A DNA stretch of 64,000 nt, taken from Scleroderma bovista. Its lineage: Eukaryota > Basidiomycota > Agaricomycetes > Boletales > Sclerodermataceae. Location: contig JAYMGJ010000237.1 in assembly GCA_037178675.1 (NCBI GenBank), forward strand, positions 44,950-108,949. Direction: 5' to 3'. Every line of letters begins with the position of its first letter. Position 1 is the stretch's first letter. The translations under genes and the position numbers were made by a program. The notes below the pieces were generated by a model. That model made no database searches and was not told the DNA's origin. It saw only the letters and a program-made list of their open reading frames with translations. Shown here in pieces: positions 26,301 through 53,815 of the stretch.

Positions 26301-27330
26301 ACTGTCAGTGCAAAGATCCAATGTGATGTCTCAGGAATCCAAGAAGTATCGGTGAGGTAATTTTTCTCCGTCAACCATTACATGGTGATGGAGAAGCCGC
26401 TGGTAATGATTTGCATCAAAGACATCCGAGATATTGCTTTTTGCAAGATTATAGGCCGCGCGATACGAGAGAGCTTTGATCATCTTTGTGCTCTGGAAAT
26501 ATCCCTGCAACTGAGGGATGAGGGGGAGGTAGGTGAACTGTCGGCATGGCTTTCCATGCTGATTGCGCTGTGCTTCTCCACAACATGGACAAGACTCGAG
26601 GTAAATGTATTTTTCTGTATAGGTGATGCAGGAATTTTTGCAGCAGTCTATGGACAGTGGTTGAACCCCAGATAATCTGGCCATGTGCTGAAAGATGATG
26701 TATTGCGAGTCAAGGTTCATCTTGTGTCGGAATGCAAATCGCATTTGCAAGTATGTACGTCAAGAGATATGGCCCATCATAAGAAGATTGAATGTGCGGA
26801 CATTATCACGATCTTCGTCTGACAGAATATCATTTCCTATTGCATCATTGGCGTGTGCAAAGTGCAGAACAACTTTAGCTGGCACATACGGAAGGTAAAT
26901 AAATCTCCTTCTCATGTATCATCTCCCACCTCATCTGACATGTCATCTCCCTCTACCCATGACCAGTCATCATCGACATCTTGAACATCATGTTCATAGT
27001 TGGCAGGTGCCTCAGACTCAGACGTCCCACTTGTGGAGCCTGATGACCCAGATGTAGACGTCTGGTGAGAACAATCATCTATGAGAGGCCTTTAGTTCCA
27101 TCGAACATGTCATTTGTTGAACCAACCTTCAACCAGATCTGATTGTGAGTCTGCTGACTCGCCTTCACTGGAATTGTGCGTGCCATCCACCTGCAGTCCC
27201 ATGTGCGCAGCTTTCCAATAGTGACGTGTCCGCTGTGCACTGCCCAAACGCATACCACATCCTGGATGGCACCAACAACGTTTCTTACCACGGGATCAAA
27301 CTGGGGGCATGGTGGTATATACAGTTAGTA
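23379..27330 (-). pseudogene. tnp2/DUF4218-type transposase of the CACTA element
   Basis: Reading from the right, the minus strand gives a cysteine-bearing N-terminal region near 27300, an acidic linker (DDDWSWVEGDDMSDE), CPCCGE at 26572, and a tnp2-like body (SAWEWFHLFLENIIPNLVDF, DFWTGQFKELG, EIWQEIGRETTDAVRHIPS). The C-terminal part ACMLTIHGLLHIVQGIR with GPVW and FHMERFCRMLQ is DUF4218-like, then HILRPPYEKVP and LRERIARYFCQILGK. The gene would excise and insert the element by acting on the CACTG ends. It is broken by the truncated LTR at 24002-25179, by a TGA before RTYLQMRFAF (26760), and by several shifts. Catalytic residues were not assigned. The family call comes from these motifs plus the termini and 3-bp TSD. 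Confidence 0.75.
23948..25233 (-). mobile_element. Truncated family A LTR with 54-bp flanking duplications
   Basis: 24002-25179 matches family A from its position 705 to its TGACA end and lacks 66 bp at the other terminus. Instead of a 5-bp target copy, it is bracketed by 54-bp direct repeats (23948-24001 and 25180-25233) that differ at one base. These duplicate transposase coding sequence in frame (YQYDIERLPACMLTIHG). Confidence 0.82.
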
Positions 27331-33933: not shown

Positions 33934-33936
33934 TGA

Positions 33937-34510
33937 CACTGCAAGCATTTCTCAATGTTTCATGACAAAACATTGTAAAAAAATAAAAGAAAGAGATACT
34001 CCTTTATTTACAATTTTGTTCAACAAAAAAGGGAAATATCATACAGCATCATTTTTATCATTTTTTCTGTCAAGACATGATTTGAGATCATTTATTATGT
34101 TAGAACTATAAAAATTTTAACCTTTTTCTTCTGTCTGTTCCTTGCAAAACAAATAAAGAAAAGACAATGTAACTTTTCTCATAGTAAGCATTTTGGCATG
34201 TTTTATTAGAAATAAGATACCATATTATTCTTCAGAACATGTTGAAAGAAAACAACAAATTTTTCTTCAAGAAACATGGTTGTTCCTGGATGCTGATTGA
34301 CTGGCTAGTATGACGCTCCATCTGTACCAAAAATCACGCGCATTTTTTAGGGTGCTTGCACAAAACTTTTCGTGTGCAATATTTCTTTACATCCCTGTGC
34401 AACTTTTTTTTGCTGACCGTGCTTGTGTGTGATATTTTTTACACCCCTGCGCGACTTTTTTTTGCTGACCATCTGTACATTTTTTGGTGCACTTTTTTTT
34501 TTGGCAGAGA
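33937..34510 (+). repeat. Left terminal inverted repeat of the giant element
   Basis: Matches the reverse complement of 51330-51890 at roughly 85-90% over the outer 270 bp, diverges for about 110 bp, then matches again. The inner half has repeated words CCTGYGCRACTTTTTT and TGCTGACC, possible transposase binding sites. The last part (34490-34580) is unique sequence up to the LINE. Confidence 0.85.
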
Positions 34511-34849
34511 GACAAAACATTAGTGAAATGCACGGGTCAGTATGGTTGGCATTTGTGTACCCGCATACAGTGGTCACAAGTAGGGGGGGGAAACCGCTTC
34601 TTGACTCCACTCCAGTTGGCACCCCGTTCAGGACCCCGAAATCTGAACAGCAGTATCACCAAGCAAAGCCCGTCGACACCAAGTCTGACGTTAAAAGAAG
34701 CAACTTACTATAGGCTTTAGTCTACTGAAGCATATACACCCACTACCCAGCAATTAGATCCAGCAACTTCTCCCCCCAACACTGACCTAGGCATCACTCA
34801 CCAACCCCCCTTCAGACTAGCCCGCTATAACCCCACAATCGCTTCAGCT

Positions 34850-36786
34850 ATGAGTGGTAGCGATAATGGGCCAACGGGCGACCCTCCCCTAGCAGCAACC
34901 CCCTCAGCTACCATCCCCCATCCCCGCATGATGGTGAACACTAGAAGACAGACCGCAGTATACGGAAAGTTAATGACAGACAAAACCAAAGAGGATCTAC
35001 TCAATCACCCCTCTATCGCCTCCTCAATAACCTCTGCGGCCCAAGCAAAGAAGCACCTAACTGAACGTGGTCTCATCAAAGAGGGCCATGACCCCGACCA
35101 CTCCTCTCTGTGCCTGGCCCTGCTCAATATTGCCCACACAGCCCCAGGCATCACAGCAATCGCAGCAGATGCCATCCTTCAGCAGCCATCCTGATCGATT
35201 CATTACCATCTGGCCCCTCCCTATCACCACCTCCCAACCCCTCCTCCCAAGTCGACACATTGTCCATCGCCCTCAAACGTCAGATCAATTCCCTGAAAGA
35301 ATGCATGGAAGAAATCCACACAACAACAGAGACCAACAAGATGTCAGCAGAGGCCCTTGCCAGAACAGTAGAGGAAACAAGAAATGAGCTGCATAGCATA
35401 GCGCAGTACGTCAGCGACACAGCAGATGAGCTAACAGGACTTCCAAACCAGATCAAAGAAGCCATCACTGCTACTCCTGCCTCATCACCCCAGCAAGATT
35501 GCCCCTCCACCCCATACAGAAATGCGCTAATCACAAAAACGCCACCCAGTAGACCCGACCCAACCGCACATACCCACTGCCCTGATGCCACCAGAGCAAA
35601 TGCAGCCATAAAAGAAAGGCAAATCCTGTTAGACATCGGCCCAGATCATCCTACCATTAATAAGGAGACACCACGTAACGAAGTAATCACCCTGATTCAG
35701 AAGGCGCTAACGAACCTACAGGATCCAAGTGGACCCACCCTACAGGCCAAGGCCATCATACACCTGCGTAACGGCGGCTACATCATCGAAATGGCATCAG
35801 CGGAAGCCACAGTTTGGGTAAGAGATCCAATAAGAAAGATGATACTAATGGAAAGCCTAGGAGGAAACGCACGCGTAAAAGATACAACATACAACATCTT
35901 GGTCTCGTTCGTTCCAATCACGGCAAGAGTAGAAGACAAACAAACGCTATGAGACATAGAAAAAACCAACGACATTCCTCCTGATTCCATTACCCAGATG
36001 AAATGGATCAAGGACCCCCAAAGGCATGGAAGAAACCAGCGAGTAGCGCACGTACTGATGTCCCTCAACAATCCCAAAGCAGCAAACAAGCTCATAGAAT
36101 CAGGCATATACTTCGACTATGGCAAATTCCACGCGTACAAAGACAAGAAAGAACCGCTTCGTTGCCTCAAGTGCCAGCATTGGGGCCACATGGCCAAAAA
36201 CTGCACAGAGGAGAAGGACACATGCGGTACATGTGCAGGGGAGCACCGCCACTCCAAGTGCAACTCGTACCGCACCTACTACTGCATCAGCTGCAAATTG
36301 TCATCGCACAGCAGCTCAGACAAGGAATGCCCCGAATACAAGACTCAGCTCAAAGCACTCAACGCCTGCATCCCTGAAAACTCAATGCCATACTTCCCGA
36401 CCAAGGAACCATGGATGCAGGTATCACTACCTCCCAAACCCCAGAGACCCATCATCCAGCCTCAACCATTCGCAGACAAAACACCCCCTGAACACCCTGC
36501 AGACCCCCAACAGCGAACCATCAAATGGATGATCCAACGGCAAGCACCGGGACCTCAACAACCGCCACCAGCTCCTGTCATCAACGGAAGAACCTTAGTC
36601 CCTCTTGGACACAGCAAACCCATAAGCTCTCCCCCAACAATGGAAAGCAGACCACGAACCCACCCGGACCCCTTCCCAGCACTATCCCCCCTACACTTCC
36701 CCGGGAACCTCCCACCATCTCCCCCCTGTTCTCACGAACAACCCACACAACAAGAGAACCCACCCCCTTCCTCACCACTTCCATGA
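34850..36786 (+). pseudogene. LINE ORF1 (nucleic-acid binding, CCHC)
   Basis: Starts MSGSDNGPTGDPPLAA. The first 110 codons are in one frame; a shift near 35190 leads to the second part (TLSIALKRQINSLKECMEEI; SAEALARTVEETRNEL; a coiled coil). TGA at 35950 interrupts TL.DIEKTND where arginine is usual. The last third has three zinc knuckles: CLKCQHWGHMAKNC, CGTCAGEHRHSKC and CISCKLSSHSSSDKEC, then a proline-rich tail. It would coat the element RNA. The stop overlaps the ORF2 start as ATGA. Confidence 0.85.
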
Positions 36787-39700
36787 ACAAGCAAGCAACA
36801 CACCCCACACTCCCGCAGCACCTACGCATATGGCAGCAGAACCTCAACACTTCCCACACAGCCCAACTCACGCTACTCAACAGCCCCATATCAGATGAAT
36901 GGGACATACTAGCCCTGCAGGAACCAGCACTAAACTCGCTGGGCAACACCAGGGCCAATACCCACTGGAGAGTAGCGTACCCGACCCGCAAGTACACCCA
37001 CGAAGACAAGCCCAGAGCAGTAATGCTAATCAACTCCAAGATCAGTACTAACACATGGAAACAGATCCCTTTCCCATCGAGAGACGTCGTGGTCATCCAG
37101 CTCAAGACGTCAGGTGGACATTGCACAGTGTTCAACTTGTACAACGACAACAACCATGATGAGACCATTGAAGAACTGGAACGGTTCTTGAGCACCAACA
37201 TCCAGGAGTTACGCCCATCCAAAGACGACCACATGCTGTGGCTGGGCGACTTCAACTGGCACCACCCCCTCTGGGACAAGGATCGCAACAGCCACCTGTT
37301 CACAGCAGCGGCCCTAGAAGCGTCAGGCAAGATACTCGAGCTGGTCACCGACTACGGCATGGTCCAGATCCTCCCCAAGGACATACCAATGTTGCAGTCA
37401 TCAAGCACACAGAACTGGACACGGCCAGACAATGCATTCTGCACGGAACACATGAGTGAATCGCTTGTGTCCTGCAACACGGCACCAGAGAAACGTGGAC
37501 CCAAAACTGATCACCTCCCCATCCTGACAGTACTCAAAATGACAACCAGAGCCTCCAACGAAAACCTGCCCTGGAACTACTGCAGCGTAGACTGGGATAA
37601 GTTTCGATCAGCATTAATGAACTCGCTAACCGAAATTGCAGGACCCCCCAGAATACCGGAGACAGCCGAGGAGTTCCAATTAGCGGCACGCAACCTTGAT
37701 GAAGCCTTACACCGCACAGTAGAGATGAAGGTCCCCAAGACTCGACCTCATCCCCACATGAAACGGTGGTGGACAGAAGACCTGACCAAGCTAGCCAGCG
37801 AACTCAAACAGCTGCGCAAGACCGTTCATAGATACCGAGCGTTGCCAGAACACACTATACATGCTCAAGTACACAAGAAAGAAAACGCCCTAAGCAAAGA
37901 AATCTGGAAAACAAAAGAGGACCACTGGAAAAACTGGCTCAACGACATGACTGGTACCGACATCTGGATAGCGCATAAGTATATCTCGAACCCAGGCGGA
38001 GACGGAGGAAAAACATGAATCCCCACCCTATGCACCACTAACCCAGACGGGCAACCCACTCATGCGACAACAAACAAGGAAAAGAGCGAGATTCTTGCCC
38101 AGGCTTTGTTCCCCACCTCCCAATGAGTCCACAGTCCCCACTGACTACTTGTACCCAGAACCGATGGAGCGTTGGACTGAAATCACAAAGGAACAACTAA
38201 CGCAAGCCATCAACAACCTCAGCCCATACAAAGCCCCAGGACCAGACAGCGTAGCCAACATCGTGTTCCAACGCTGTCAGGTCCTTGTTGAATACCTCCT
38301 TCCCATATTCAACGCAGCCATCAATCTAAGAACATACTACAACCCATGGCGCGATTCAATAACGGTAATCTTGCATAAACCAGGGAAACCCGACTACTCA
38401 GTTCCAAAAGCCTACTGCCCAATAGCCTTACTGAACACAACAGCAAAGCTCTTATCTGCTATCGTTGCAGACCGCACATCATACATACTGGAATCGCACA
38501 ACCTCCTCCCAAACACCCACTTTGGAGGAAGACCAGGACGCTCCATGGAAGACTCCCTCCACCTACTAGAAAACACCATCTGACATGCGTGGAGGCAAAA
38601 ACGAGTTGTTTCAGCACTCTTCCTCGACATTGAAGGCACGTTCCCCAATGCTGTCACCGACTGACTGATACACAACATGAAACGTCACTGATTTCCCCCG
38701 GAAATAGTCAGCTTCACAGACAGAATGCTTCGTGGAAGAAGAACAAAACTACGGTTCGATGATTACACCTCAGAGTGGTTCAACATTTCGAACGGAATCG
38801 GACAAGGCGATCCACTATCCATGATCCTATACATCATATATGACTCAGACCTGGTAAGGACGGCAACAGGAAAACAGGAATTGACATTGGCATTTGTAGA
38901 CGACACTGCCTTCCTAGCCATAGGAAAAACATTCCAGGAGATGCACCAGATACTCCAGGACATGCTGGAAAGAAGCGGAGGTGGATTCGAGTGGTCAAAC
39001 TTACACAATTCTCGCTTTGCCCCCAGCAAATTTGTGCTAATAGATTTTTCGTTAAACAGGACCAAGGAACATCCCCCATTAGTAGTCAGAAAAGCCACAA
39101 TAAACCTGTCCCCCACCCACAAGTTCCTTGGCGTCATACTCGACCAAGAACTCCGCTGGCGTGAACACACAGCCTACGCTATCGCAAAAGGAGCACGCTA
39201 TGCTATCCTCCTCCGACGGCTATCCAGAACAGCACAAGGAGTACCCACAAAACTGATACGTCAACTATACCAGACAGTAGTAATACCCCGCACACTCTAC
39301 GCTGCAAGCGTCTGGCTCCGCCCGACATACAACAGGACAACAGACACTCCCATTCGAGGATCCATAGGAACAGCAAAGAAGATCACCCAAATGCAGAGAA
39401 CAGCACTCCTGGCGATAACCGGTGCAATGAGATCGTCCCCTACCAACTCCCTAGAGATCCATGCAAATCTGTACCCAGGACCCCTTCTGGTACAACGCGC
39501 ACTGTTCAACTCCCTCATATGCATATCCACCCTCCCACCCCACCACCCGCTCAATCCCATCGTAACCCACATAGCAAAGCGAGGACCGGTAAAGCGTCAC
39601 CAATCGGCCCTCCACCTCATGATGAGATTTCTCGCAGTGAACCCAAGGAAAATAGAGCTCATACACCCATGCCCTACCCACCCGAACTCATGTACCCCGT

Positions 39701-40760
39701 TCACCACGTCCATAGCCAGCTCAAAAGAGGACGCCATCGCCAAGTTCCAGAACTGCAACACCTGCACCATAATATTCACCGACGGGTCCAGCACTGGCAG
39801 GAAAGTCAGAGCAGCAGCCTCCCTTTACGTAGACTACACCCACATAGCAACATTACAATTCCACTTAGGAGAAGACACCAAACACACAGTGTTCGAAGCA
39901 GAGGCAGTAGGACTGATTCTGGTGGCCCAACTTTTATTGACAAGAAATGAGACAAGTTTCCCAGCGACGTCTTTGCTGACAACCAGGCAGTAATCAGATC
40001 AGGTGCGCGACCCACAGCCAAACCGGGACACTATCTACTGCTCCATTTCAGAAAGCTGGTCTGACACCTGCAGAAGAAAAAGGACCTCGATGACAAGGCA
40101 GTTCGCCTGAATTGGATAGCCGGACATATGGACATAGAGGGCAATGAACTAGCCGACAGAGAGGCCAAACTAGCGGCGCTGAGAAAGGAAACATCCAGCC
40201 CACAGAGGGACCTACCCAAGGCGCTCCGGAAAAGGCTCCCAGTAAGCACGTCTGCAGTCAAACAGACTCATGAGAGCCAAATCCAAAAAAGATGGCATGA
40301 GGAGTGGAAGAAATCTCCCCGACACCCCCATATCAAAGTGCTAGACCCCTCGCAAACGCCAAACTCATTCCTACAACTGACAGGTCACCTGAAGAAGAAA
40401 CACACCTCAATATATGTCCAACTCCGCACAGGCCACATCCCGCTAAACAAGCACCTCCACAGAATCAAGAAGAGCGCCACCCCCATGTGCCTTCAATGTG
40501 GTGACAATCAAATCGAAACAGTTCATCATTACTTATTTGACTGCCCCAGATACAACAGGGAATGGCACATACTTTGACAGAAGCTAGGTCAAAATGCGCT
40601 GTCAACCTCCCACCTCTTATCTGAGAAAACCGCACAACAAGCGCTGTTCAGATATATAGACAACACAAAATGTTTACACCTGGTATTCGGCGACATCCCT
40701 ACCCCCCCAAAAAGCAGCAACCCCAGACGGCTCAAACCCACAGAACGGCACAGAACGTAA
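36783..40760 (+). pseudogene. LINE ORF2: endonuclease, reverse transcriptase, RNase H
   Basis: Start chosen at ATG 36783, which overlaps the ORF1 stop. APE endonuclease motifs: IWQQNLNTS, LALQEPAL, LWLGDFNWHHPLWD and KTDHLPIL. RT: YKAPGPDSVANIVFQ, NPWRDSITVILHKPGKPDY, FGGRPGRSMEDSLHLLE, NGIGQGDPLSMILY and the catalytic FVDD (38894). RNase H: IIFTDGSSTGR and WIAGHMDIEGNELADREA. A C-terminal CLQCGDNQIETVHHYLFDC knuckle closes it. In-frame TGA codons at 38016, 38581, 38662, 38689, 40062 and 40575 all sit at arginine positions. A further frameshift lies near 39950. The copy is dead but full length. Confidence 0.9.
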
Positions 40761-41614
40761 CGAAGACAACAACATGCCATACCCAACATGCTGCATGCCA
40801 TCAACTCAACCCATGCCCAGATCCCCTCCCTCACTTAGTGATACCTACCCTCAGCATAACTTCACTCTGATGTAGACCTCACAGATGCAACAGATGAACA
40901 CCATGGCCAGATCCCACTCGCACGGGAGAAAGACATCAAGCTACAGTAAATCATGACGAAGAACAATGGGACCTGAACGTCTCTATCCAACGACGGCACA
41001 AGCATCGTGGACCCCCACCCAACCCGACCCACCCAAGAGGGATGCACCACCACACGTCAAGACCGGCGTACCACCGCGCATACGTTCATCCGCAACCTAC
41101 TGGCACACCACACCGTGACGCCAGCACCAAGCTTATGCCCGCTGGCACACACATGCAGAGACGGCCTTAATCGGCCACAGGAAGCTCGGAAGTAGTACAC
41201 TTGATTCCCTCTTGGTTCCGCCGACTCATTACCGAGCGGCCGGGACCGTGTCTGTACAGAACCCCAGACAGACAGATCACAAACCCTCCCCCACCTCATC
41301 AGACGGCACAACTAAAATGCGCAGTGGGAACATGGTGGACCCTTGGGGGACCTTACAGTCCTGGCCAGGGGGGCATTCGTGTGTCAGGGGAAGAGCCAGG
41401 CCACAGGAGGCCTTAGAACATAATACCGCTAGTAGAGTGCAAAATGGGGTGCTACCCCCGAAGCACTATAATTCAACATTAAAAATAAAAATAAAAAAGT
41501 AGGGGGGGAAGAGGAGGGTGGTATGTACTGCATTGCTAGCTCGGACAACCATGCCCACTCAATTGATAATGATTAACAAAAAAATGTCCATAGCTAAAAT
41601 AAGCACTAATACTA

Positions 41615-42450
41615 ATGGTAACGGTCATTTGTGTTGTTGCCGTCGCCGTGCGGATGTTGGTGCTGGTGCTGGGGGCAGTTGTTCGTGTTGTCGCCGTCGT
41701 CGTTGTCATGCAAGTGATGGTGCTGTGTCGTTGTTGTACGTCGCCACTGTCATCCACCTCGTCGTCCGTGTCGTGTCATTGTGGCACTGGCCATCTGTGT
41801 CACCTCATTGTCATTGTCGTTGTCGTCTCACCGTGGCGCTTGCCATGGGTGTCACGTTGTTGTTGTCTTTGTTGTGCTGCCATTGACGTGTCGTCGTCGT
41901 GCAGATGCAGGTGTAGTCATTGTTGCCGTGTAGGTGATGGTCTGGTCCTGGTGCCGTGGTAGTTGTTGTGCAGGTGCTGGCGCTGTTGTTGTCGCTGTTG
42001 TCATGTGGGTGCTGGTGCTGGATCGTAGTCATCGTGTGGGTGATGGTGCTAGTACTGGAGATGGGATGGTTGTGGTCGTGGCTGTGCAGATGTGGGTGCT
42101 GTTGGTGGTGCTGGTGTAGTCGTTGTGGTCGTGGTCGTGCGGATGCTGGTGCTGGTGCTGTTGTCGCTGAGGTAGTTGTTGTCACTGTCATGCGGGTACT
42201 GGTACTGGTACTGGTACTGGGGTGGTCATCATAGTCGCCATGGTGGCGTGGGTCTGCTGCTGCTGGAGTCGTCATTGTCTGGTAGTGTGGCTATGATTGG
42301 CGTTAGTGGTGGTAAGAGTGTTGGTACATACTGGTGCTGGTGCTGGTGCTAGAGTGGTCGTCGTGATCGTCGTGATCACATGGGTACTGCTGCTGCTGGA
42401 GTTGTCATTGTTGTGGCAGCGTGGCTATGACCAGTATAGAGCATGGTGGT
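41615..42450. repeat. Low-complexity TCG/TTG/GTG tract
   Basis: Degenerate trinucleotide-rich sequence (words such as GTTGTTGTCG and GTGCTGGTGCTGG), CpG-rich, with long chance frames on both strands. Similar to 1-485 (complement) and 52600-53100. It follows the LINE inside the giant element. 42450-42630 holds nothing I recognise. Confidence 0.75.
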
Positions 42451-42630
42451 TACATGCTGGACACTTGTCGTTGTTGGGTGCTGATCGTGAGAGATACACA
42501 TGGGCATGTACCCATAGGCGCAGGTATGGGTGCGGCCCAAGAACCATATACAGTACATAAGTATGAGATATATGACAGTCATAGGTATGGAAATTGCATG
42601 GTGTAGTCCAAGGATGTACATACAGTAAAC

Positions 42631-43678
42631 TTAGGTACAATTTCGAGCCCGAGTGCCACGTCGAGCGTTGCGTGGTTTGTCCAGCTCTTTACGCCAACTA
42701 AGGTATCGGCCATATGATGTGGCCCAAGCAGCTTGCAAAAGCGCACGGGGACACTTCTCCGGGTCTATAACGCGAGCTGTAGGTGACCAATCTCGCATAC
42801 AATCAAACAACACTTCGTCCACACCCCGAGCGCCCAGCTCAGCGAGGAGTGGAGCCTTCGTGAGTTCAAGGCCACGCTGGAAAATGTTCTCCACATCATC
42901 AAGTGCGACATTCGGGTAGATCGTCTGAGCAAGAGTGTTCAATATTGTCAGTACTGAAGCGCTGGAATATGAAACAAAGACGCACCCCATAGGCATAACT
43001 GTCTTCATTGAAACAATCCATTCTAATCTTCGATTCACCGGGTTTGTGAATCCACAGATGGAATTGCATGGATGTTATGGAAAACCACGTGTGACCATCC
43101 GCGGTCACCAATGAAAACCCCTCAGCACTCGCATAATCCGTCCACTCAGCAAATGTCATCGGTTTTAACGACCAAAGATTCCTCACGATGGATCTGTTCG
43201 CACCTGGGCTGTGAAATGGCTGCTCTTGTTTGAATAAAATCTTGCCAACAAGTAATAGGCCAGGAAGATCTTGAACGTAGGCCCGGAGCTTCTTTGTAAC
43301 GTCGCGATCGCTTTGACTGAACACGCACTCCATTACCCAGATCGTCTCCGGCATAATGGTACCCGCTTTGCGCCCCTCATGCCACACCTGGACCGTTAAG
43401 TCGGGCACTCCGTTGATAGACTCCCCTTGATGAAAAGTGTTGGAACCTGCTTGACAATATGCAATAGCTGAAGGGATCGGGATAGTACACAGACTGTCGT
43501 TAAGATCCGCTGTGAGAATCAATAAGAGGGATTCATGAGCAGGGCTGGGCGATAGAGCCATTAGACGTTGAGAGTCAAAGAAGAAGGTGATTTTAGGCCT
43601 GAGATGCAATGGTTCGTCACAGCGTGGGATGGTAATAATAGGTAACACACCTGATCCACGTTTTCTGATACTCATCAC
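42631..43678 (-). CDS. Basidiomycete protein of unknown function, possibly nuclease-like
   Basis: Begins MMSIRKRGSGVLPIITIP at 43678. The main exon contains GVPDLTVQVW (residues 91-100), WVMECVFSQSDRDVTKKL (114-131), LVGKILFKQ, SLVTADGHTWFS and EDSYAYG. The downstream exon in another frame (DDVENIFQRGLELTK, GVDEVLFDCMRDWSP, NARRGTRARNCT) completes it, so a small intron after AYG (about 43000) is likely, although I could not fix the junction. I recognise the order as a common Agaricomycete family. The pattern PD..T then E after about 24 residues resembles a restriction-endonuclease fold, but the usual lysine is absent, so nuclease activity is speculative. No nonsense codon in either exon. Confidence 0.55.
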
Positions 43679-43679
43679 T

Positions 43680-44205
43680 TTCTAAGTGTTCCATGATGTA
43701 GATGTAATCACTAAAAGATACATTTTTGTACTGCTCGAGTATCCATTAAACTCTTGACATCCGAGAACAACACCAACTTACAACTAAGTATTCTTGTTGG
43801 CCCCTCGAAAGATCCCGAAGAATTTTCTTGCACTTTGCTTGATAAATGAGCAGTCAGTCACAGAACACTGTTGTTATATTTTTCATGACCTTACCAAGAG
43901 TTGAGTATACTTGTGAGGGAGAGGTATTCTGCTGTGTGACCAAGGCACCAGATTTGACAGTGGGTGAAAAAACCTGCCCATCCCTAGGCATAACATGTGT
44001 GGGCAGCCCTTTCTGAGTGGATGGAAGGGAAGATGCCATCCAGTTTTTCTTCCTCATTCTTTGTTCACCCTTGACATGAGCTTGTGGGTATGGATCAAGA
44101 GGTGGGCTTATGTCAGCACCTGAAACTGATGGCGAAATAGGAGCACACACACGCACTGAATCGAATAAAACAGATCAAACAATCAACGAATTTTTCGTAA
44201 GATAA
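43680..44205. other. Spacer with one 100-codon minus frame
   Basis: The frame 43854-44156 (MRVCAPISPSVSGADISPP) could be an upstream exon of the neighbouring minus-strand gene or unrelated. No family resemblance. Confidence 0.35.
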
Positions 44206-44209
44206 CTAA

Positions 44210-44777
44210 CTAATTACATGGACAAGGGCCACAGAAATTACTGTCATACATGTTGTTAAAGATGGAAAACCCCAATGTCCACAAGCTCTGGAACACAATA
44301 GTCTCTCCCAAGTCGGATGAGCTCAACCGGAGAGACATGGCATAAATTCTCTTTGACGCGATCGACGACCAACCCGCAGAGCTCAGAAGAGCATCGGAAC
44401 TTGTCAGTGAACTCGAACAAGTCGCGGAGGTCTGAAAATGTATAAAAAGAACAGATGCTAACACATTAATTTAGAGGTTAAATAATTGAGTTACAAGAGA
44501 GGACTTACTAGCCACAACTCCCCTCAAGGTACAAATCAAATTGCTTCACGGTCAATGGCAGTATAATTGGGTCCTCGTCAATTGTCCCCTCCGTCCTCGG
44601 TTCGCCAAAGTGCATACCCAAGGTGAGCATGTCAGAGAAGATTTTGGAATCTTTCTCCAAGGTATCACGGACAAGTTTGTATAGCGTATCCTCAGCCTGG
44701 AAAATCAGTGAACCATTTGGATAGTAGAAGCGGGGGTGGCGGATAGCAGTGCTCTCAGGAGGAGGTACAGACATCAT
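44210..44777 (-). pseudogene. BTB/POZ-domain protein, short and probably broken
   Basis: Exon 1 (44777-44516) reads HPRFYYPNGSLIFQAEDTLY, then DTLEKDSKIFSDML, GTIDEDPIILPLTVKQFDLY, the core of an Agaricomycete BTB/POZ domain (a protein-interaction fold, often a cullin-3 adaptor). After a GTAAGT..TTTCAG intron (about 44510-44432) the next exon gives DLRDLFEFTDKFRC, RVKENLCHVSPVELIRLG and ends near 44278. The frame does not join cleanly at the splice site and the C-terminal half seen in the other BTB gene (50271-51272) is missing. Confidence 0.6.
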
Positions 44778-45324
44778 GAATATACGAGGAAAGCTGTACT
44801 TGGGCTTATAGGTACATATTTACCAATGTTTGTACCTGAGCTCTTGTAGCGATCAGAATTCTGCCCATTAATGACATGTCCTCCACTGCCCAACGAGTGT
44901 TTCCACTCCTTCCATGACACTACCATGGCGGATGGCCAGCTGATGTTCACAACGCTTATGAAGTCATCAAGAGAACATACGATCGAGCCGTTTGTGTCCT
45001 CCGATCTGATAGTTCTTCCGATCCCACTCGGGTCGCGTTTCACGTTGATGCACTCTCTTCAACAGCACTCCCCATACTTGAAGCACTTATTCCTAGTAGT
45101 TCCAGCCATGAAGATGAATGTTTGCCTGTTGAATGGATCATGGGCATTGCAAGACTGCTGGGACAAGCGGTTCAAGACCTTCAGGTCATGGCGCATATCG
45201 CCAACACTTTGTCAGTCCAATTTTGTGTTAGGGAGCTATACTGACTTATTTCATAGGGAACAGCAAGGTGTTAGTATCCCAGGACTTGTAACAAAAGTCA
45301 CGAACGGTCAATGAGGATGACCTC

Positions 45325-47169
45325 AGCAGTCGATCTGCCTCGACTTCCTTACTGAGGTTGTCACGAACAATAGTCGTCACATCAATCTCAGTGAACTTGC
45401 TCATATCCTAGGGATTAGCCATATGACACTTTGGCGAAACATGCGGAAACATGGCCTGAAGCGGAGCTACACTTTATTAAGCAACAACGAGCTGGACTTA
45501 CTAGTGAGGACATTCAAGAGGCACAAACCGGAGTCTGGCTTCAGATATTTACTTGGACACTTACAGTGTCAAGGGGTTCGAGTCCAATGTAAACAGATAT
45601 GGCAATCGTTGCGTCATGTTGATAGACTAGGTCAACGTTTACGAGAGCGTCGTGTTATTCAACCCAGGGTATATCGTGTCAAGAGATCAAATGCACTCTG
45701 GCATATCGACGGTCATCACAAGCTCATCCGATGGGGGTTCGTGATTCATGGAATCATTGATGGCTACTGTCGAACGGCACGTACTAGGCTCACTGATATG
45801 TTCCTTGGTTGGCTGGTCTTATGGTTTCAACAGATTACCGGCTTACAAGCAAGTACAGATAACTATGCATCAACCGTTCTCGATGTATTCCTCGATGCAC
45901 GGGAGAAATATGGTCTGCCATCACGTATGAGAGGTGATTGAGGTGGTGAAAATGTCAATGTGGCTACATATATGGTGGCTGCTCCCTCAGATGAGGTGCA
46001 TTCGACCCAGGGACTTCTGGAGGTCTGGCAAGGCTCCCAAGGACTAAGGAGACTAAGAAACTAGAGAGTGGAAGGGTGGTTCAGTCACTCCAAGACTGAG
46101 CTCAAAGATATACACTGAAGAGAAGGATCTTTTTTTTTTTAGTAAGCTAAGTACAAGCCTACATAGCTAAGGTAAGAGTCCAGTATCAGTACTACCAATC
46201 TACACACCCAGAGACAGGACTGTCTCTACAACGGGGCCCCAACCATGGATAGTTCATGTGGGGATCATAAGTCACTGCTATGAACATCATCTCTATGATT
46301 ACCTTGACATCTGAACTACAGATCTACCTGAAACTCTAGGATTGAGCGCATATGGGTCGAACTTGGAACCCAATTTGTACGCCGATGGCGCGGATTTTTT
46401 GTTCATTGTGAAAGACGCCATCGCCTCGATATAGAGAACATCAACCATCTATGGCTCCTTCAGAGACTCTTTCTTGGGCCCATCAATGGTGATTGTGAAG
46501 TTTTTCGCCAGGAATGGAACCTTCACCCTATAAGTGGGCCCACGACCAATAACAAAAGTCCACAGGTATGTCATGTGTATTGGTTGTACCCAATTTTACT
46601 GACATGTCCACAAGGACTTGCGGCTTATCAGTCACGTTACACTAGGGGTGTATCGTGATGAATGTGAGGGTATCCATCCCCTCACTATGGAACAGTACTA
46701 TGGTGTCCACGGCCGTGAACAGATCCGTTTAAATGGTCAAACTGGTGCAGGACATCCTCTTGACGAGGATCCAGAGGAGGGTGATGAAGGAATCATTGCA
46801 GATGGACATAGAGGTATCCTTGAAAGGCTTGAAGCTGACATTCGGGTTCAAGTGCATCACGAAGCCGTTGAGGTTCCAGGAAAAGGATTGCCTTTCATGT
46901 CTGTTGAAGACGAAACCGAATTTTGGTCAGTGCTTGACCATGTGATGCTTGAAAATATTGTGCCAACATGGTATGGATTACTATCAGAGGGGGATGAAAT
47001 AGAAGGTGGCGAATCAACACTGGAGCACATTCCAATCGGGCGTCGTGGAACAAAATATGTTACTGTGTCATTGGCAGAACCAGTGTGGGCAAGGCGGGCG
47101 AAGACTTGGTGCCAGGCGCTCACTGTTTTAACTCTCTTTGATGCAAGTGGCTACTTCGATGAACAGTAG
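45325..47169 (+). pseudogene. Integrase-core (DDE) protein of the giant element
   Basis: An N-terminal helix-turn-helix (LSELAHILGISHMTLWRNM) leads to RRVIQPRVYRVKRSNALWHI, where WHIDGHHKLIRWG gives the first aspartate. LPSRMRGD.GGENV gives the second, with TGA (45939) in place of the usual arginine. SRIERIWVELGTQFVRRW-like sequence at 46340 gives the glutamate. The C-terminal part after a 40-bp intron (GTATGTCATG..CACAAG, 46576-46615) reads GVYRDECEGIHPLTMEQYYG, QTGAGHPLDEDPEEG, IGRRGTKYV and ends at 47169. An insert of about 58 bp after GYCRT (45772) looks like a GC-AG intron. About 340 bp of unrelated DNA separates the second aspartate from the glutamate. The family is an rve-like integrase core widespread in basidiomycetes. 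It is the only candidate DNA strand-transfer enzyme in the giant element. Currently disabled. Confidence 0.75.
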
Positions 47170-47313
47170 TAGATTCGTAAATTATGGTAACACAACCTGG
47201 TGGGTATTTAATCCACGTTCGCTTGAGCATTGCAATTTGTCTTTCTTTGTAGTGACACTGTTGATCACGCACTCGGACTACTACTCTGCTAATACGGCTG
47301 CTTCACTGCTTCT

Positions 47314-48437
47314 ATGGCAGGCAATCAGTACTGTCATGAGGTTGAGAATGGCCAAAAATGTGGTTGCGAGCAGTTCACGGAACCCATCGACCCAAATGCT
47401 CGTTATTTTTGTCGGGAATGTCTGCATGGATTCAGCAAACACAAACTGCAAGAACTACCTGGAGAAGAACCGGGCCCGTTGGTGGCCAAGGCGAAGGTAG
47501 AGGACAATGACACTGTCAGCCGGAAGCTTTTGGAAGTATTCCATCAACGGAAGGCCTCGAGTTGTTTCTTGACAGTTGCTTCATATCAACTAGTTCACCT
47601 TCCTGTGATTATGTTTTAGTCTGTGTTCACATGAGCTTAAATCATATGTACATTATCCAAAGCATTGATCAAAATAATCCACATTCGTACTTGAACCTCT
47701 TGTGGTGCATCTATGTTTTGGCTGGTAGATGCAGCCCTCTGTGACTTCCCGATGAAGCTGGCCTGTTTCTATAGTATCTATACATTAGAATACACAGAGG
47801 AAGCATCTGAACAGTACCTTGGTTTTGGTTGCCAAGGCTCGTCTGCCACTGGTGCCACCACTCTTGAACCCTTTGATTGCTTCTTCACGTGCTTGGTGGA
47901 GAATCCCCATTACGAGTCCGAATGGAACTCACACTTTCGAGTTTGGCGTATAGCTTGTGCTGGCGAAGTCGCCGAAGCACTTCCCGAACGTGTTCAGTAT
48001 GGTCCTCCATGTTGTCCGAGTAGACTAAGATGTCGTCGAGGTAGACTACGACGCAGACATCGAGCATGTCCGCGAAGACTGAGGTGACGAACTGCTGAAA
48101 GGCTGCAGGGGCGTTGGTGAGACCGAAGGGCATCACCTGCCACTCATACGAGCCGGGTTATACACGGCAGAACAATGTCAATGTGCCCATACTGGCCAAG
48201 GAGCGGCTAAGTTTGCATTCTGCAGGACTTGGACTCATGAAGAAGTCGATACTTACTTCAAACGAGAGGTTTTTCCATGCGCGCTAGGGTATGCCACTGA
48301 ATGTGACAAGGGTAAAAGCAAAGATCGCCCAACTTACTGGAAATTGATCAACAAGGAGAAACAGTGGTACAAGCTTGCAGTAACTCGTGGTCCACCCACC
48401 GGCGAGGATTTGTACCGCTATCGAGGACGGCCAAAAT
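47314..48437 (+). pseudogene. Cysteine-cluster protein of unknown function, split by a gypsy scrap
   Basis: Starts MAGNQYCHEVENGQKCGCEQ, then FCRECLHGFSKH, a small zinc-binding-like cluster, and a charged linker. After a region with introns (around 47590-47780) EEASEQYLGFGCQGSS appears. The gypsy fragment at 47917-48155 then interrupts it. Beyond, the frame AAKFAFCRTWTHEEVDTYFK, then DRPTYWKLINKEKQWYKLAV and PPTGEDLYRYRGRPK, ends at 48437. I recognise the C-terminal block as a common Agaricomycete pattern but know no function. Confidence 0.5.
47917..48155 (-). mobile_element. Fragment of a Ty3/gypsy reverse transcriptase
   Basis: On the minus strand the reading [20 protein letters not shown] followed by [18 protein letters not shown] contains the catalytic YLDD. 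It is close to the same stretch of gypsy-2 (63560-63780), but less decayed: it keeps the arginines that gypsy-2 has lost. Only about 240 bp are present and no LTR accompanies it. Confidence 0.85.
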
Positions 48438-48442
48438 GACCA

Positions 48443-49861
48443 TTGCCAGACTCGAATGTAATCATAGGTATGATAACGAGTCCCACACTCTCTAACCAGT
48501 ACTCATACATCATCGTAGCGCTGTGTATTCCTGTTCCGGCTAAAATATACACATCATGGGACCCAAATTTCGAATCATCTCTGTCAAGTGACGGTTCGGA
48601 TTATGAGGCTTCACTATTCCAAGCAGCGAAAAGAATACCAAAACGGGACCCCTACGGTATGTCATTTAGTGACCATAGCGATTGTATCTGACTTCCTTTA
48701 TAGAATTGTCTCCTCGTACTTGTTACGACCATGTCCAACTCCGGACCATATCCGGTTACTCTGGTCACATCGCAGGCCTACAGCTCAACTCCGGTCGTTC
48801 TCAGTTACTCCAGTCAACGGTTGCGCAGATAACCTTCCGCTAACTACGACCCTTGGTCTATACTCCATTCGCTCTTACTACACCTCGCCGTCTACCCTGC
48901 CTTGACGTGAGTTCTCCATGAACTCGATATATCCTATACCTTGTAGCATTTTCACCAGACCTGATTTATTTTACACGGACCTGACTTTATTTTCACCGGA
49001 CCTGACCTAGTCCTAACTCCGGTCATCCCTTGTCTGCTATTAGGTTGTTTACTTGTCACCATATGTACTCGACCCTAGTTCTACTTAGTATAGGTACCCT
49101 CTAGTTTACCTTGTACACCTCAGTCTGAAATCAACTTAGTCACTACTCCAGTCTCTGCCTGTCTCCGTCTCCGTCTCCATCTCTATCACCTTGACCGGAA
49201 CCTACGCAAGGGATCAACGCACATCGTCCTTGTCGTTGAATCCAAGCGGTCACCAACTCCGGCCGGACTAATCCCTCGTCCAGCCCTCTGCCCTCCTCCT
49301 TCGTCCGCGCTTGTCCGGACTTGACCGGACCCCCTACCGGAGTAGACCCGGACTTGACAGTACTGGACAACCAAAGGGAAAACGGGGCCGATATCAATTG
49401 GCCTCGCCACGCATCATTGAAATTGATAGTGACAACTCTGACGAGCCGACATCTGGCACTCAAGGAAGGGTCGGTCCTGTCACCCGATCCAAGTCATCAA
49501 GGCGTATGTCTCGTTTCCTTATTTCTAAAATTTTGTTGTGTACTTACAACCAAGCTGGTCCATTACAGTAGTTTTCCTTCCTGGTGGTAACAATTTAATG
49601 GATGCAACCAGCCTTCAAGATGACATGAAACCGCTCTCAGTCTCTCCACTTCGACCTGCGCATGCCGACCAGTCATATCAAATTTCACATAGCACTGGCA
49701 TTATGAATCGCTGTATCGCAGTGCCTCTCAGGGTTGTCAAGACTCTCAATATTTTTGGAAGATTTGACGACTGCCCATCCATACACCCACTCATCAATCC
49801 ATGGACCAAGGATTATTTCATTGGTGCAGTAGAGCTAGCGATTCACGTTATGGAGAAGTGA
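48443..49861 (+). pseudogene. Short acidic gene split by the solo LTR
   Basis: Left of the LTR: SWDPNFESSLSSDGSDYEAS with KRIPKRDPYG. Right of it: PRIIEIDSDNSDEPTSGTQG, an I-I-E-I-D run followed by acidic residues that resembles a SUMO-interacting motif, then after a likely intron (about 49508-49600) SPLRPAHADQ, VVKTLNIFGRFDDCPSIHP and NPWTKDYFIGAVELAI to a stop at 49861. The last block resembles a common Agaricomycete hypothetical family. Function unknown; whether both sides were one gene is inference. Confidence 0.4.
48721..49359 (+). mobile_element. Solo LTR, family B copy 2
   Basis: Starts TGTTACGACC, ends GGACTTGACA, with the 5-bp duplication GTACT at 48716-48720 and 49360-49364. It is 639 bp long and inverted relative to 9267-9909. 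Confidence 0.93.
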
Positions 49862-50270
49862 GGTACGAAGGTGACATACTTCTTATATGTACCACCAGAA
49901 ACACTTTCACGTTATCACCTGCTTCTTTTACCCCAGCATACCTTCCCTTGCGATGGTTTCTACCACTCAATAATGCCAGCCTATCAGTTGTTCATCTTGG
50001 TTTCATTCCTTCCCTAGTTTCAGATGATAAGAGTCACTTTGTCATCTCAGTTTCGCACTTTTATCTTCACCATTACTCTTGTTTTCTCTATGTTACAATT
50101 TCTTTACCTTTAATTAGTCCAACCGAGAACTCCTCGTAGAAATGCGAAGGCTCCTGGCCGCTGCTGCACTACATGTTGTGGGGTATTTGCTTCTGTTTGT
50201 ACCTGAGTTCTTCAGTGCTGTTGCAAACACGTTCAGAGCATTGCTCAAGCCACCAGTCGTGTCCAACCAA
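49862..50270. other. Upstream region of the BTB gene, no clear gene
   Basis: AT-rich with short frames (49801-50139). It probably contains the promoter of the BTB gene. I could not define a TATA box with confidence. Confidence 0.4.
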
Positions 50271-51272
50271 ATGTCGCTACCTGTGCGACACCATCAGATG
50301 TTCTATTTTATGGATGGGACCCATATCCTCTGGGTGAGTTACCTGCCATCTCCAAACTATCCATCCCGTTCACTTAGTCACGTCCCAGGTTCAAAATGTA
50401 CTATTCAAAGTCCATCAGAGTGTTCTCTCTGACAAATCCATTGCCTTCAAGCAAATGTTCGGTGCAACCAAAGACTGTGGAGTTATTACACTCGATGGGC
50501 ACGCTGATGACAAACCAATTTTGTTGCCTCCCCTGGTCACAGAAGCTGAATTTGAATTGTTTCTGTCTGTATGCTACAACAAGTAAGTTGATAAGCTCGA
50601 CACTATTTAAATTGTTATACTGATCTTGTCACTTTCAGGTGGCACCCAGATACTTCACAATTATCTGAAAGTACCATATTGGTCCTCCTCGAACTCAGTC
50701 GAATGTACGAATTGAAGGAAGCCCGTGAGCACACCATAAAGCAGCTCAACTCTTGCCGCTACTCAATCCAACCCACCACGTTAATATCTGTTGCCCTAAA
50801 ATATCACATCAAAGACGTCTTCTGTTACGCATTCAACAAGCTGGTCTCAAAGCATGTAAATGACCTCGAGCTTTCGGACTACGACCTCCTTACCAATCCT
50901 GTATGGATAACGCTCTTGAGAGTCAAGGAGCGACTTGATCTCCACTGCCGCATTGTGGCATGTGAACCGCCACCTGTGAGGCATTCGATGTATTGCCAGA
51001 AACAGCGGAAATGCTACGAAGAGTGGTGTCAGGTCTGGTGGAACGGAATGGGCTGCTATTTGCTTGACAGTTGTAACCCTCAGTCCTATGACGCTGCGGT
51101 ACAACAGTTCGAAGGCCTTTGTTATGGCAATATGGACCCGGAGTGCTGGAAAACAATGCTTACTTTCATCAAGGCAGGGAGGGCATTTAAACACGAGGAA
51201 GATCTTGTTGAGACCACGGCTCAGGGTTTGGCAGCGTACCTTATCTGTGAACCTGATCTTGACAACTCTTGA
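50271..51272 (+). CDS. BTB/POZ-domain protein, apparently intact, 296 aa
   Basis: Three exons (50271-50333, 50389-50582, 50639-51272) with introns of 55 and 56 bp (GTGAGT..CCCAG and GTAAGT..TTCAG) give an uninterrupted 296-residue protein. The BTB core is GTHILWVQNVLFKVHQSVL, SDKSIAFKQMFG and DDKPILLPPLVTEAEFELFL. The C-terminal helical half reads ELKEAREHTIKQL, TLISVALKYHIKDVFCYAF and CYEEWCQVWWNGMG with RAFKHEEDLVETTA, a pattern I know from Agaricomycete BTB proteins. BTB proteins usually dimerise and may recruit cullin-3 ligases or chromatin factors. The gene lies directly inside the right inverted repeat of the giant element. It is the only multi-exon gene in the tower without a visible lesion, which could mean recent capture or selection. 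Confidence 0.8.
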
Positions 51273-51329
51273 CAACATATGATACTACCTGTAGCATAAA
51301 CTTGTGCACAATATATACAACATTTTGTC

Positions 51330-51890
51330 CTACCCACCACCAAAAAAAAATGTGCACAAAAAGTTTTGCGGAAGCACCCTAAAAACGCGCAGGGGTGTGT
51401 AAAAAATATTGCACACAAGCATGGTCAACGAAAAAAGTTGCGCAGGGATGTAAAGAAATATTGCACACGAAAAGTTTCGCGCAAGCACCCTAAAAAACGC
51501 ATGTGATTTTTGGTACAGATGGAGCATCATAGGCTAGAGTGTTATAACCAAAAATATATAACATGTTTCCTAAACATTTATTTTTATAGAATAGAATATT
51601 TTTTGATTCAATCTTTTACTCCAGAAAATTGAAAATGCTTGCTGTGAGAAAAGTTACATTGTTTTTCCTTTATTTATTTTGCAAGGAACAAGCAGAAGAA
51701 AAAGGTTAAATCTTTTTTATTCCCAACATAAGAAATGATCTCAAATCATGTTTTGACACAAAAAATGATGAAAATGATGCTGTATGATATTTTTCTTTTT
51801 TGTTAAACAAAATTGTAAATAAAAGAGTATCTCTTTCTTCTATTTTTTTTACAATGTTTTGTCATGAAACATTGAGAAATGCTTGCAGTG
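51330..51890 (-). repeat. Right terminal inverted repeat of the giant element
   Basis: Reverse complement of 33937-34510 with the same outer 17 bp. The central part is more diverged. The inner end lies about 60 bp beyond the BTB stop codon. Confidence 0.85.
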
Positions 51891-51893
51891 TGA

Positions 51894-52599: not shown

Positions 52600-53815
52600 G
52601 GGGATCATCATCGCATGGGTGACCATCATTGGGGGCTGGGTGTCCCCGTCATTCCTGGTGGTGATTGCCGTGTTGTCGACACAGGTGGTGGAGTTGTTGT
52701 TGTCATTGCTGGTGGATGCGTCGTCGATGCAGGTGGAGTTGTTGTTGTCATTCTCATTGTTGTTGTTGTTGTTGTCGCTGGTGGAGGCATCATCAATGCA
52801 GGTGGTGGTCGTTGTTGTTGTCGGGTCGCGACAACAATGCTGGTGGTGGTATGGTGGCCGTGTCGTCAGGTACCATCGCTGGTAGCTGTCGTCGTTGCAT
52901 TGGTGCTGGCCATCGCCGTCGTCGTTGTCATCTGGTTGACAACGTGGGTGGTGGTGGTCACGTCAACGACGCTGGTGGTGGCCGGTGTTGTTGCTGTCGT
53001 CCGTTGTTGGGGTCGTTGTCGTTGCTGATGGTGGTGGTCGCGTCGACGACGTTGGTGGTGGTGATGGTCGGTGGTGGCTGTGGGTGAGGCGCGTAGTGAA
53101 GTCGTAAATACTATTAGAAAATATTGGTAGTTCCATATGCTGATATAATCATTACACAAACACACGCACACACACACAATTGAAAAATTTCTCTAAGTCT
53201 CTTATTCTCTTCATCTTCCACCACCACCACCACACCACACGTTGACCACCACCCAACAGCCACCACCACCGTTGACGATGACGACGACGTGACCACCACC
53301 ACCCCAGTACCATCAATGAAGACAACAACAACGACAGGGCCACCACCACCCACTACCATCGACAACAATGACAATGACCCACCACCATCAACACGACCAC
53401 CACCATCATCAACACGACCACCATCACCATCAACAACAATGATGACAACCCACCACCGTCGACGCGACCACCACCACCATCAATGACAACGACAACGACC
53501 CACCACCATCGACGCAACCACCACCACCCCACTACCCTCGACGAAGACAACAACGACCCACCATCCCACCACCGTCGACGGAACCACCACCACCCCACTA
53601 CCGTCGATGACGATGACGACTACCACCACCACCCGACAGCCACCACCACTACCGTCGATGACAACGACCACAACCACCTCGATGATGACGTGACCACCAC
53701 CCCACTACTAGTGACGACAACGACGACACCACCCCCTGCCTGTGCTGATGGCCACCCCACCACCGTCGTTGACGATGACACAGCCACCACCTCGACAACT
53801 GCCATTAGTATATAG
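52600..53815. repeat. Low-complexity tract with inverted strand composition
   Basis: 52600-53090 is rich in TGG/TTG/TCG on the plus strand; 53216-53815 is rich in CCA/CAA/CGA. The AT-rich centre (53091-53215) includes a short CA run at 53158-53178. The two arms are roughly reverse complements in composition and share degenerate words, so a quasi-hairpin is possible. Translations are period artefacts. 53816-54240 carries a minus-strand frame possibly belonging to the next gene. Confidence 0.75.

Follow-up and report, generated by a model that had tools for sequence, protein, structure and literature searches.

Is the 18-kb structure flanked by long inverted repeats in the genome of the fungus Scleroderma bovista one large transposon of an undescribed class, or more than one element? 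The structure lies at positions 33937-51890 of the window, by which we mean the whole stretch of 64,000 nucleotides of contig C237 that was analysed, in an assembly of 51.8 Mb and 850 contigs. A preliminary description, made from the letters of the window, saw a single DNA-level insertion with identical outer ends, long imperfect inverted repeats and a 3-bp TGA duplication. The observations themselves were borne out: both outer ends have the sequence CACTGCAAGCATTTCTC, the match between the inverted repeats is imperfect, and each flank carries TGA. The single insertion was not, since a second pair of ends (TATGAYGCTCCATCTGTACC) at 34308/34309 and 51531/51532, with the 6-bp target site duplication (TSD) GGCTAG, splits the structure. 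The 18 kb is best read as two transposons, an IS3EU-type element inside a CACTG-ended miniature inverted-repeat transposable element (MITE), and ends of the IS3EU type occur in this MITE far above chance, as shown statistically. We hold with high confidence the reading as a whole, in which the nested pair and the excess of such ends in the MITE are joined to a proposed targeting mechanism.

The evidence for nesting comes from the two arms of the outer repeat, each of which was aligned on its own to intact MITEs. The left alignment stops at MITE position 372 and the right one starts at 367, the two overlapping by GGCTAG, so that a TA...TA element with a 6-bp TSD has inserted in a 722-bp MITE. 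At about MITE position 372 the window switches to TATGACGCTCCATCTGTACC, a change that is mirrored at the right, with GGCTAG on each junction. What was described earlier as a 560-bp inverted repeat consists of the MITE arm (372 bp) and the inner element's own repeat. The parts of the structure are as follows.

33934-33936, unstranded: TGA, left copy of the 3-bp target duplication of the MITE.
33937-34308, plus strand: left part of the CACTG...CAGTG MITE, MITE positions 1-372.
34303-34308, plus strand: GGCTAG, left copy of the inner 6-bp target duplication.
34309-51531, unstranded: IS3EU-type transposon with TA...TA ends, lying in the MITE; the C676 copy, free of the later insertions, measures about 9.2 kb.
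34309-34520, plus strand: terminal inverted repeat at the left end of the IS3EU element (TATGACGCTCCATCTGTACC...), its inner boundary approximate.
51330-51531, minus strand: terminal inverted repeat at the right end of the IS3EU element, its inner boundary approximate.
51532-51537, plus strand: GGCTAG, right copy of the inner 6-bp target duplication.
51532-51890, plus strand: right part of the CACTG MITE, from MITE position about 367 to its end.
51891-51893, unstranded: TGA, right copy of the 3-bp target duplication of the MITE.

A second copy of the inner element, on contig C676, is mostly 95-96% identical to that of the window and is without the long interspersed nuclear element (LINE) and the solo long terminal repeat (LTR) found in the latter. 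It lies in another MITE copy, with different flanks and its own TGA/TGA; its junctions are 7 bp further left in the MITE and its TSD is ATTGGC. Because the MITE copy, the site and the 6-bp TSD all differ, the C676 and C237 elements are independent insertions. That the two represent one composite that moved was considered and rejected, as the inner sites and TSDs differ, and no evidence was found for the composite moving as a unit.

The outer MITE is about 722 bp long, with CACTG...CAGTG ends and a 3-bp TSD. Its terminal 24-mer, searched genome-wide at three mismatches or fewer, gave 255 matches (126 + 129), or about 128 copies, and the backward control gave 0 at the same threshold. Among these termini 19 loci (L002-L020) were fetched; 14 hold a two-ended MITE of 703-726 bp, while the remaining five (L006, L007, L014, L015 and L018) are interrupted or truncated. 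The 3-bp duplication is general, being exact and of varied sequence in 13 of the 14 paired MITEs and also present in C237 and C676. The left arm of the window is 90.6-96.5% identical to approximately positions 1-372 in 12 of the paired MITEs and matches the other two over 1-258 only. The GC content of the MITE is 28%, and its inner 208 bp are not an inverted repeat.

By its CAC...GTG ends and 3-bp TSD, the outer MITE is assigned to a putative CACTA type. It would presumably be mobilised in trans by a CACTA-type transposase of this genome, for which the 60 genome matches to Transposase_21, 59 of them above cut-off, are a possible source; among these matches, with 100 of the 255 termini listed, no CACTG-ended partner encoding such a transposase was identified. 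A CACTA-type cargo element mobilised in trans had been one of the original suggestions, and this fits the outer 722-bp shell only, the inner genes belonging to a nested transposon and not to cargo of the CACTG element. The copies of the outer repeat elsewhere surround other contents insofar as the 14 paired copies, of 255 termini, are at 703-726 bp too short for these genes. On its minus strand, the window also has a match to Transposase_21 (tnp2), at 25953-26348 (C237:70902-71297). A candidate for a 4-kb autonomous CACTG element, C371:35810-39912, was rejected, as it consists of two MITEs.

The MITE sits in what looks by eye like a reverse-transcriptase (RT) gene. The preliminary description had this host gene rejoining exactly in frame once the element and one TGA are ignored. 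Read by eye in the flanks, the frame does continue over the junction with one TGA counted, but a TAA follows about 18 codons on, and the RT-like reading goes on in a different frame. A Pfam search of four host open reading frames (ORFs) found no RT and no recombinase, the sole match being at chance level (E 0.88). We take these ORFs, from their motifs, to resemble a DIRS-type element, for which Pfam gave no support.

The assignment of the inner element begins with its integrase-core gene.

45321-46658, plus strand: integrase-core transposase (PF24764, rva_4) with exons at 45321-45941 and 46332-46658; an in-frame TGA (45939-45941) and a 248-bp insertion disrupt the gene.

This gene had been recognised from the outset, and its exons match PF24764 in Pfam (E 2.7e-24 and 4.3e-13), a family that we presume to be a marker of IS3EU. 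The integrase-core locus L069, on contig C26, also matches PF24764. The in-frame TGA of the window is CGA in L069, where the Asp-Asp-Glu triad can be seen by eye; the stop falls between the second D and the E, and C676 stops at the same place. Over the first exon the C26 transposase is 74% identical to that of the window, and its element has 99%-identical inverted repeats, TA...TA ends and the TSD GGTGAG. The more distant C219 (45% identical) has an integrase-core gene between TATGGCG ends 7.2 kb apart, with the TSD CCTAAT. The elements of C237, C676, C26 and C219 all start with TATG and finish with CATA, and an exact 6-bp TSD is found in six of ten two-ended loci: GGCTAG (C237), ATTGGC (C676), CTAGCC (C815), CTGCCT (C384), GGTGAG (C26) and CCTAAT (C219). 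A search for inverted repeats gave nothing of use in 8 kb of C267 or in stretches of C309 and C192. The transposase has 277 homologues, and the names among the 120 listed are those of mushroom-forming fungi, fungi related to them and a single sea cucumber; a PDB sequence search with the transposase exon gave no match. As first described, no Polinton polymerase is present among ten window ORFs, and Pfam found neither a Polinton/Maverick protein-primed DNA polymerase nor a capsid in these and ten L069 ORFs.

IS3EU elements have TA...TA termini and 6-bp TSDs, according to Kojima 2023 (PMC10045372) and Kojima 2025 (PMC12730594), and we file the inner element under IS3EU because its ends and duplications match these published features. 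By its ends, TSD and integrase-core gene the inner element thus appears to belong to IS3EU. The undescribed integrase-core class once suggested for the gene finds no support, as the gene lies in a TA...TA element with 6-bp TSDs, which are IS3EU features. There is no new transposon class here; what looks new is an IS3EU lineage carrying BTB-like genes and the MITE as its landing pad.

IS3EU-type ends were searched for across the assembly, all targeting data coming from this one genome. Ends with two mismatches or fewer were kept, and 19 matches with three mismatches were dropped because the backward control matched as often overall (62 against 54). The 35 ends that were kept lie in 25 loci, or 18 distinct loci once those with common flanks are merged. 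Six of the 18 are in the CACTG MITE (C237, C676, C815, C416, C384 and C275); C384 is duplicated as C838, the two being 99.9% identical over 3,373 bp and counted as one locus. With 128 x 722 bp the MITE accounts for about 0.18% of the genome, which gives an expectation of 0.03 loci compared to the six found and a binomial P of about 6e-13; without the window copy the count is 5 of 17 and P about 1e-10.

The insertions are also concentrated within the MITE. The left junction, CTGGCTAG joined to TATG, is found at four places at two mismatches or fewer (C237, C416, C759 and C815), and the right junction was located for all of these except C759. GGCTAG, near the MITE centre, has received four insertions from three families. 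C815 and C416 belong to one non-autonomous family, 78% identical and in opposite orientations, the comparison along the whole length covering C815, C416 and C384; an earlier statement that C815 is inserted opposite to C237 was withdrawn, as ends cannot tell orientation. C759 represents a third family, the element containing a BTB-like gene, and is the only one of that family's seven loci that lies in the MITE. Further MITE sites are about 359-364, 7 bp from GGCTAG, and 520-525 and 526-531, which are adjacent in one arm. The four hexamers targeted have 50-67% GC compared to 28% for the MITE. This takes at least five to six independent insertions in the MITE. Separately, in L100 (C774:9950-10080) 9 bp separate a third-family IS3EU end from the beginning of a CACTG MITE.

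Several points weigh against this reading. At three mismatches or fewer the backward control gave 62 matches compared to 54 real ends and was not split by mismatch class, about four chance matches are computed among the 35 ends, mostly in the two-mismatch class, and the three two-mismatch loci may therefore not be elements. The MITE share was taken from counts of termini (126 + 129) and not from a full mask, and the enrichment was measured for IS3EU ends alone. C275 and C759 show one end only, the TSD of C416 carries one mismatch, and C309, C177 and C790 have no matching 6-bp TSD. The third family was found via its MITE insertion, which biases its 1 in 7, and it was left out of P. In 40-bp steps the rise in GC is slight, with 0.33-0.38 at the centre and 0.17-0.35 elsewhere, and in the predicted fold of the MITE the hotspot is paired in part and the arm sites are paired throughout. 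Recognition of a hairpin tip is unsupported, since the inner 208 bp are not an inverted repeat and the fold places none of the sites clearly in a loop.

Target preference is the most likely cause of the MITE excess, by a mechanism that we infer. Our proposal, which is tentative and falls somewhat short of probable, is that the BTB-carrying IS3EU lineage actively recognises one MITE family as an integration site, with the transposase or a passenger protein (BTB, cysteine-cluster or the one of unknown fold) directing it to a few hexamers, above all GGCTAG. The IS3EU DDE transposase would act by cut-and-paste, with the usual two-ended strand transfer and a 6-bp stagger. The target complex, through a helix-turn-helix part of the transposase or through a passenger protein, would favour certain short stretches of fairly high GC within the AT-rich MITE, which could thereby serve as a dispersed and harmless landing pad.

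There are other potential reasons for the excess. IS3EU may insert widely and its copies in the MITE may persist because they are harmless there; repeats generally tolerate insertions, which is in favour of this explanation, yet it predicts neither the repeated use of one hexamer in 722 positions nor 6 of 18 loci in 0.18% of the genome, as other non-genic DNA should serve too, and we consider such passive survival unlikely. Slightly less credible still is that a few old insertions were multiplied by movement of the MITE or by gene conversion among MITEs. The C384/C838 duplicate shows that copying does happen, and C815 and C416 have site and family in common, but GGCTAG holds three families in two orientations and three further MITE sites are occupied, which brings the count to at least five to six separate insertions. 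That the 18 kb is a single transposon of a new class, whose CACTG ends and 3-bp TSDs belong to the integrase-core gene, could draw on the two TGA/TGA-flanked copies of the whole arrangement but is extremely improbable, given that inner ends with a 6-bp TSD exist, that the inner element sits at different MITE positions in C237 and C676, that the gene's relatives are bounded by TA...TA ends and 6-bp TSDs instead of CACTG ends, and that each of the 14 CACTG copies whose ends could be paired is a MITE of 703-726 bp.

Within the nested IS3EU element of the window, further insertions can be recognised.

34593-41498, plus strand: LINE with a target duplication of about 13 bp, absent from the C676 copy; limits approximate.
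45983-46230, unstranded: 248-bp insertion that the C676 copy lacks, with no visible target duplication.
48721-49359, unstranded: solo LTR (TGT...ACA) with the 5-bp target duplication GTACT.

The LINE, about 6.9 kb long, encodes an AP (apurinic/apyrimidinic) endonuclease above the Pfam cut-off, with RT, RNase H and zf-RVT below it. At the level of sequence the LINE and the solo LTR are shown to have entered the IS3EU element later, and they inflate it to its length in the window. A sequence 95% similar to the 248-bp insertion in the transposase gene occurs at C498:136621-136848. At 47566-47902, 337 bp are inverted relative to C676, with 98% identity and about 250 bp of extra sequence alongside. 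Degenerate repeats resembling TGGTGCTG/GTTGTTGTC lie at 41640-42420 and 52630-52980; the former are also in the C676 copy and so belong to the inner element. Over the 3.4 kb of 42600-45982, the window and C676 differ by 139 substitutions, namely 132 transitions, 87 of them in CpG, and seven transversions, an excess that we read as a sign of methylation-linked C-to-T repeat decay, as would be expected from that process.

The inner element also carries passenger genes.

42631-43681, minus strand: conserved passenger gene, fold without assignment (first described as nuclease-like).
44508-44819, minus strand: exon of the first BTB-like gene, which points away from the integrase-core gene and is named by homology to the L069 protein.
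47293-48439, plus strand: cysteine-cluster gene with coding pieces at about 47293-47500 and 48083-48439, split by the 337-bp inversion.
50118-51272, plus strand: second BTB-like gene, its 3' end toward the right terminus.

The two BTB genes seen at the start are upheld by homology: the window's own exons have no Pfam match, and the BTB label is given because the homologous exon in L069 matches PF00651 (E 6.9e-5), both window genes matching the L069 protein, though the match is weak for the first (36%, E 1.4e-5). A BTB-like gene (E at most 1e-3) lies near the integrase-core gene in at least 13 of 20 fetched loci, a sample that left out the well-scoring C635 and C647 and the weak matches. The positive loci are C237, C676, C26, C309, C192, C267a, C151, C206, C517, C573, C219, C546 and C202b; in C182, C202a, C267b, C447, C799, C539 and C61 none was seen. 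This count is a lower bound, since most loci span only 1.5 kb per side. The cysteine-cluster gene is present as described, its cysteines recognised by eye and conserved in relatives, and a protein search with it returned three fragments. The nuclease-like label remains unproven. The protein has 26 homologues in a large protein set, of which the seven with names are all from Pisolithus or Scleroderma, which would make the host probably one of the Boletales; the 27 aligned sequences have no Pfam match, and the model of a homologue is of low confidence (pLDDT 62) with no PDB fold match at E of 0.001 or less.

In place of a supposed new transposon class, which proves false, this locus offers an instance of target choice that can be tested, with three families using one hexamer of a 722-bp repeat. 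It also serves as a warning for very large fungal elements, since nested elements can mimic one giant transposon with long inverted repeats. If the targeting holds true, the MITE would offer a natural safe-site integration system.

The inner element shares with IS3EU the TA...TA termini, the 6-bp TSDs, the integrase-like DDE transposase and the presence, in fungi, of extra genes beside the transposase (PMC10045372, PMC12730594). Fungal examples described in these two papers carry TET/JBP and alpha-kinase genes, whereas BTB-like genes are frequent companions here, and the main text of PMC12730594 does not once use the term BTB. The rust families are given TAYGG termini, compared to TATGAYGCT or TATGGCG here (PMC10045372, PMC12730594). 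The portions of the literature available to us contain no report of BTB genes in IS3EU or of IS3EU landing in a MITE. The outer MITE resembles a non-autonomous element of the CACTA/EnSpm (CMC) group, with the same ends and 3-bp TSDs, and encodes nothing; CAC...GTG ends and 3-bp TSDs are given for EnSpm in PMC12730594. Nested LTR retrotransposons of plants have been reported (PMC6911290) to target specific regions of other elements, and also palindromes, but these are retrotransposons in plants, and both enzyme and target differ from IS3EU and the MITE. There is also a likeness to IS1397 and ISKpn1 of the IS3 family, which target repetitive extragenic palindromic (REP) sequences and whose specificity, as experiments indicate, comes from the transposase (PMC1525189). 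In both cases IS3 relatives show a preference for a small repeat that is dispersed, although IS1397 and ISKpn1 are bacterial and use short REP units, whereas here a eukaryotic MITE of 722 bp is entered, on statistical evidence. If true, targeting of the MITE would link a bacterial habit, the insertion of IS3-type elements in palindromic repeats, to their eukaryotic relatives.

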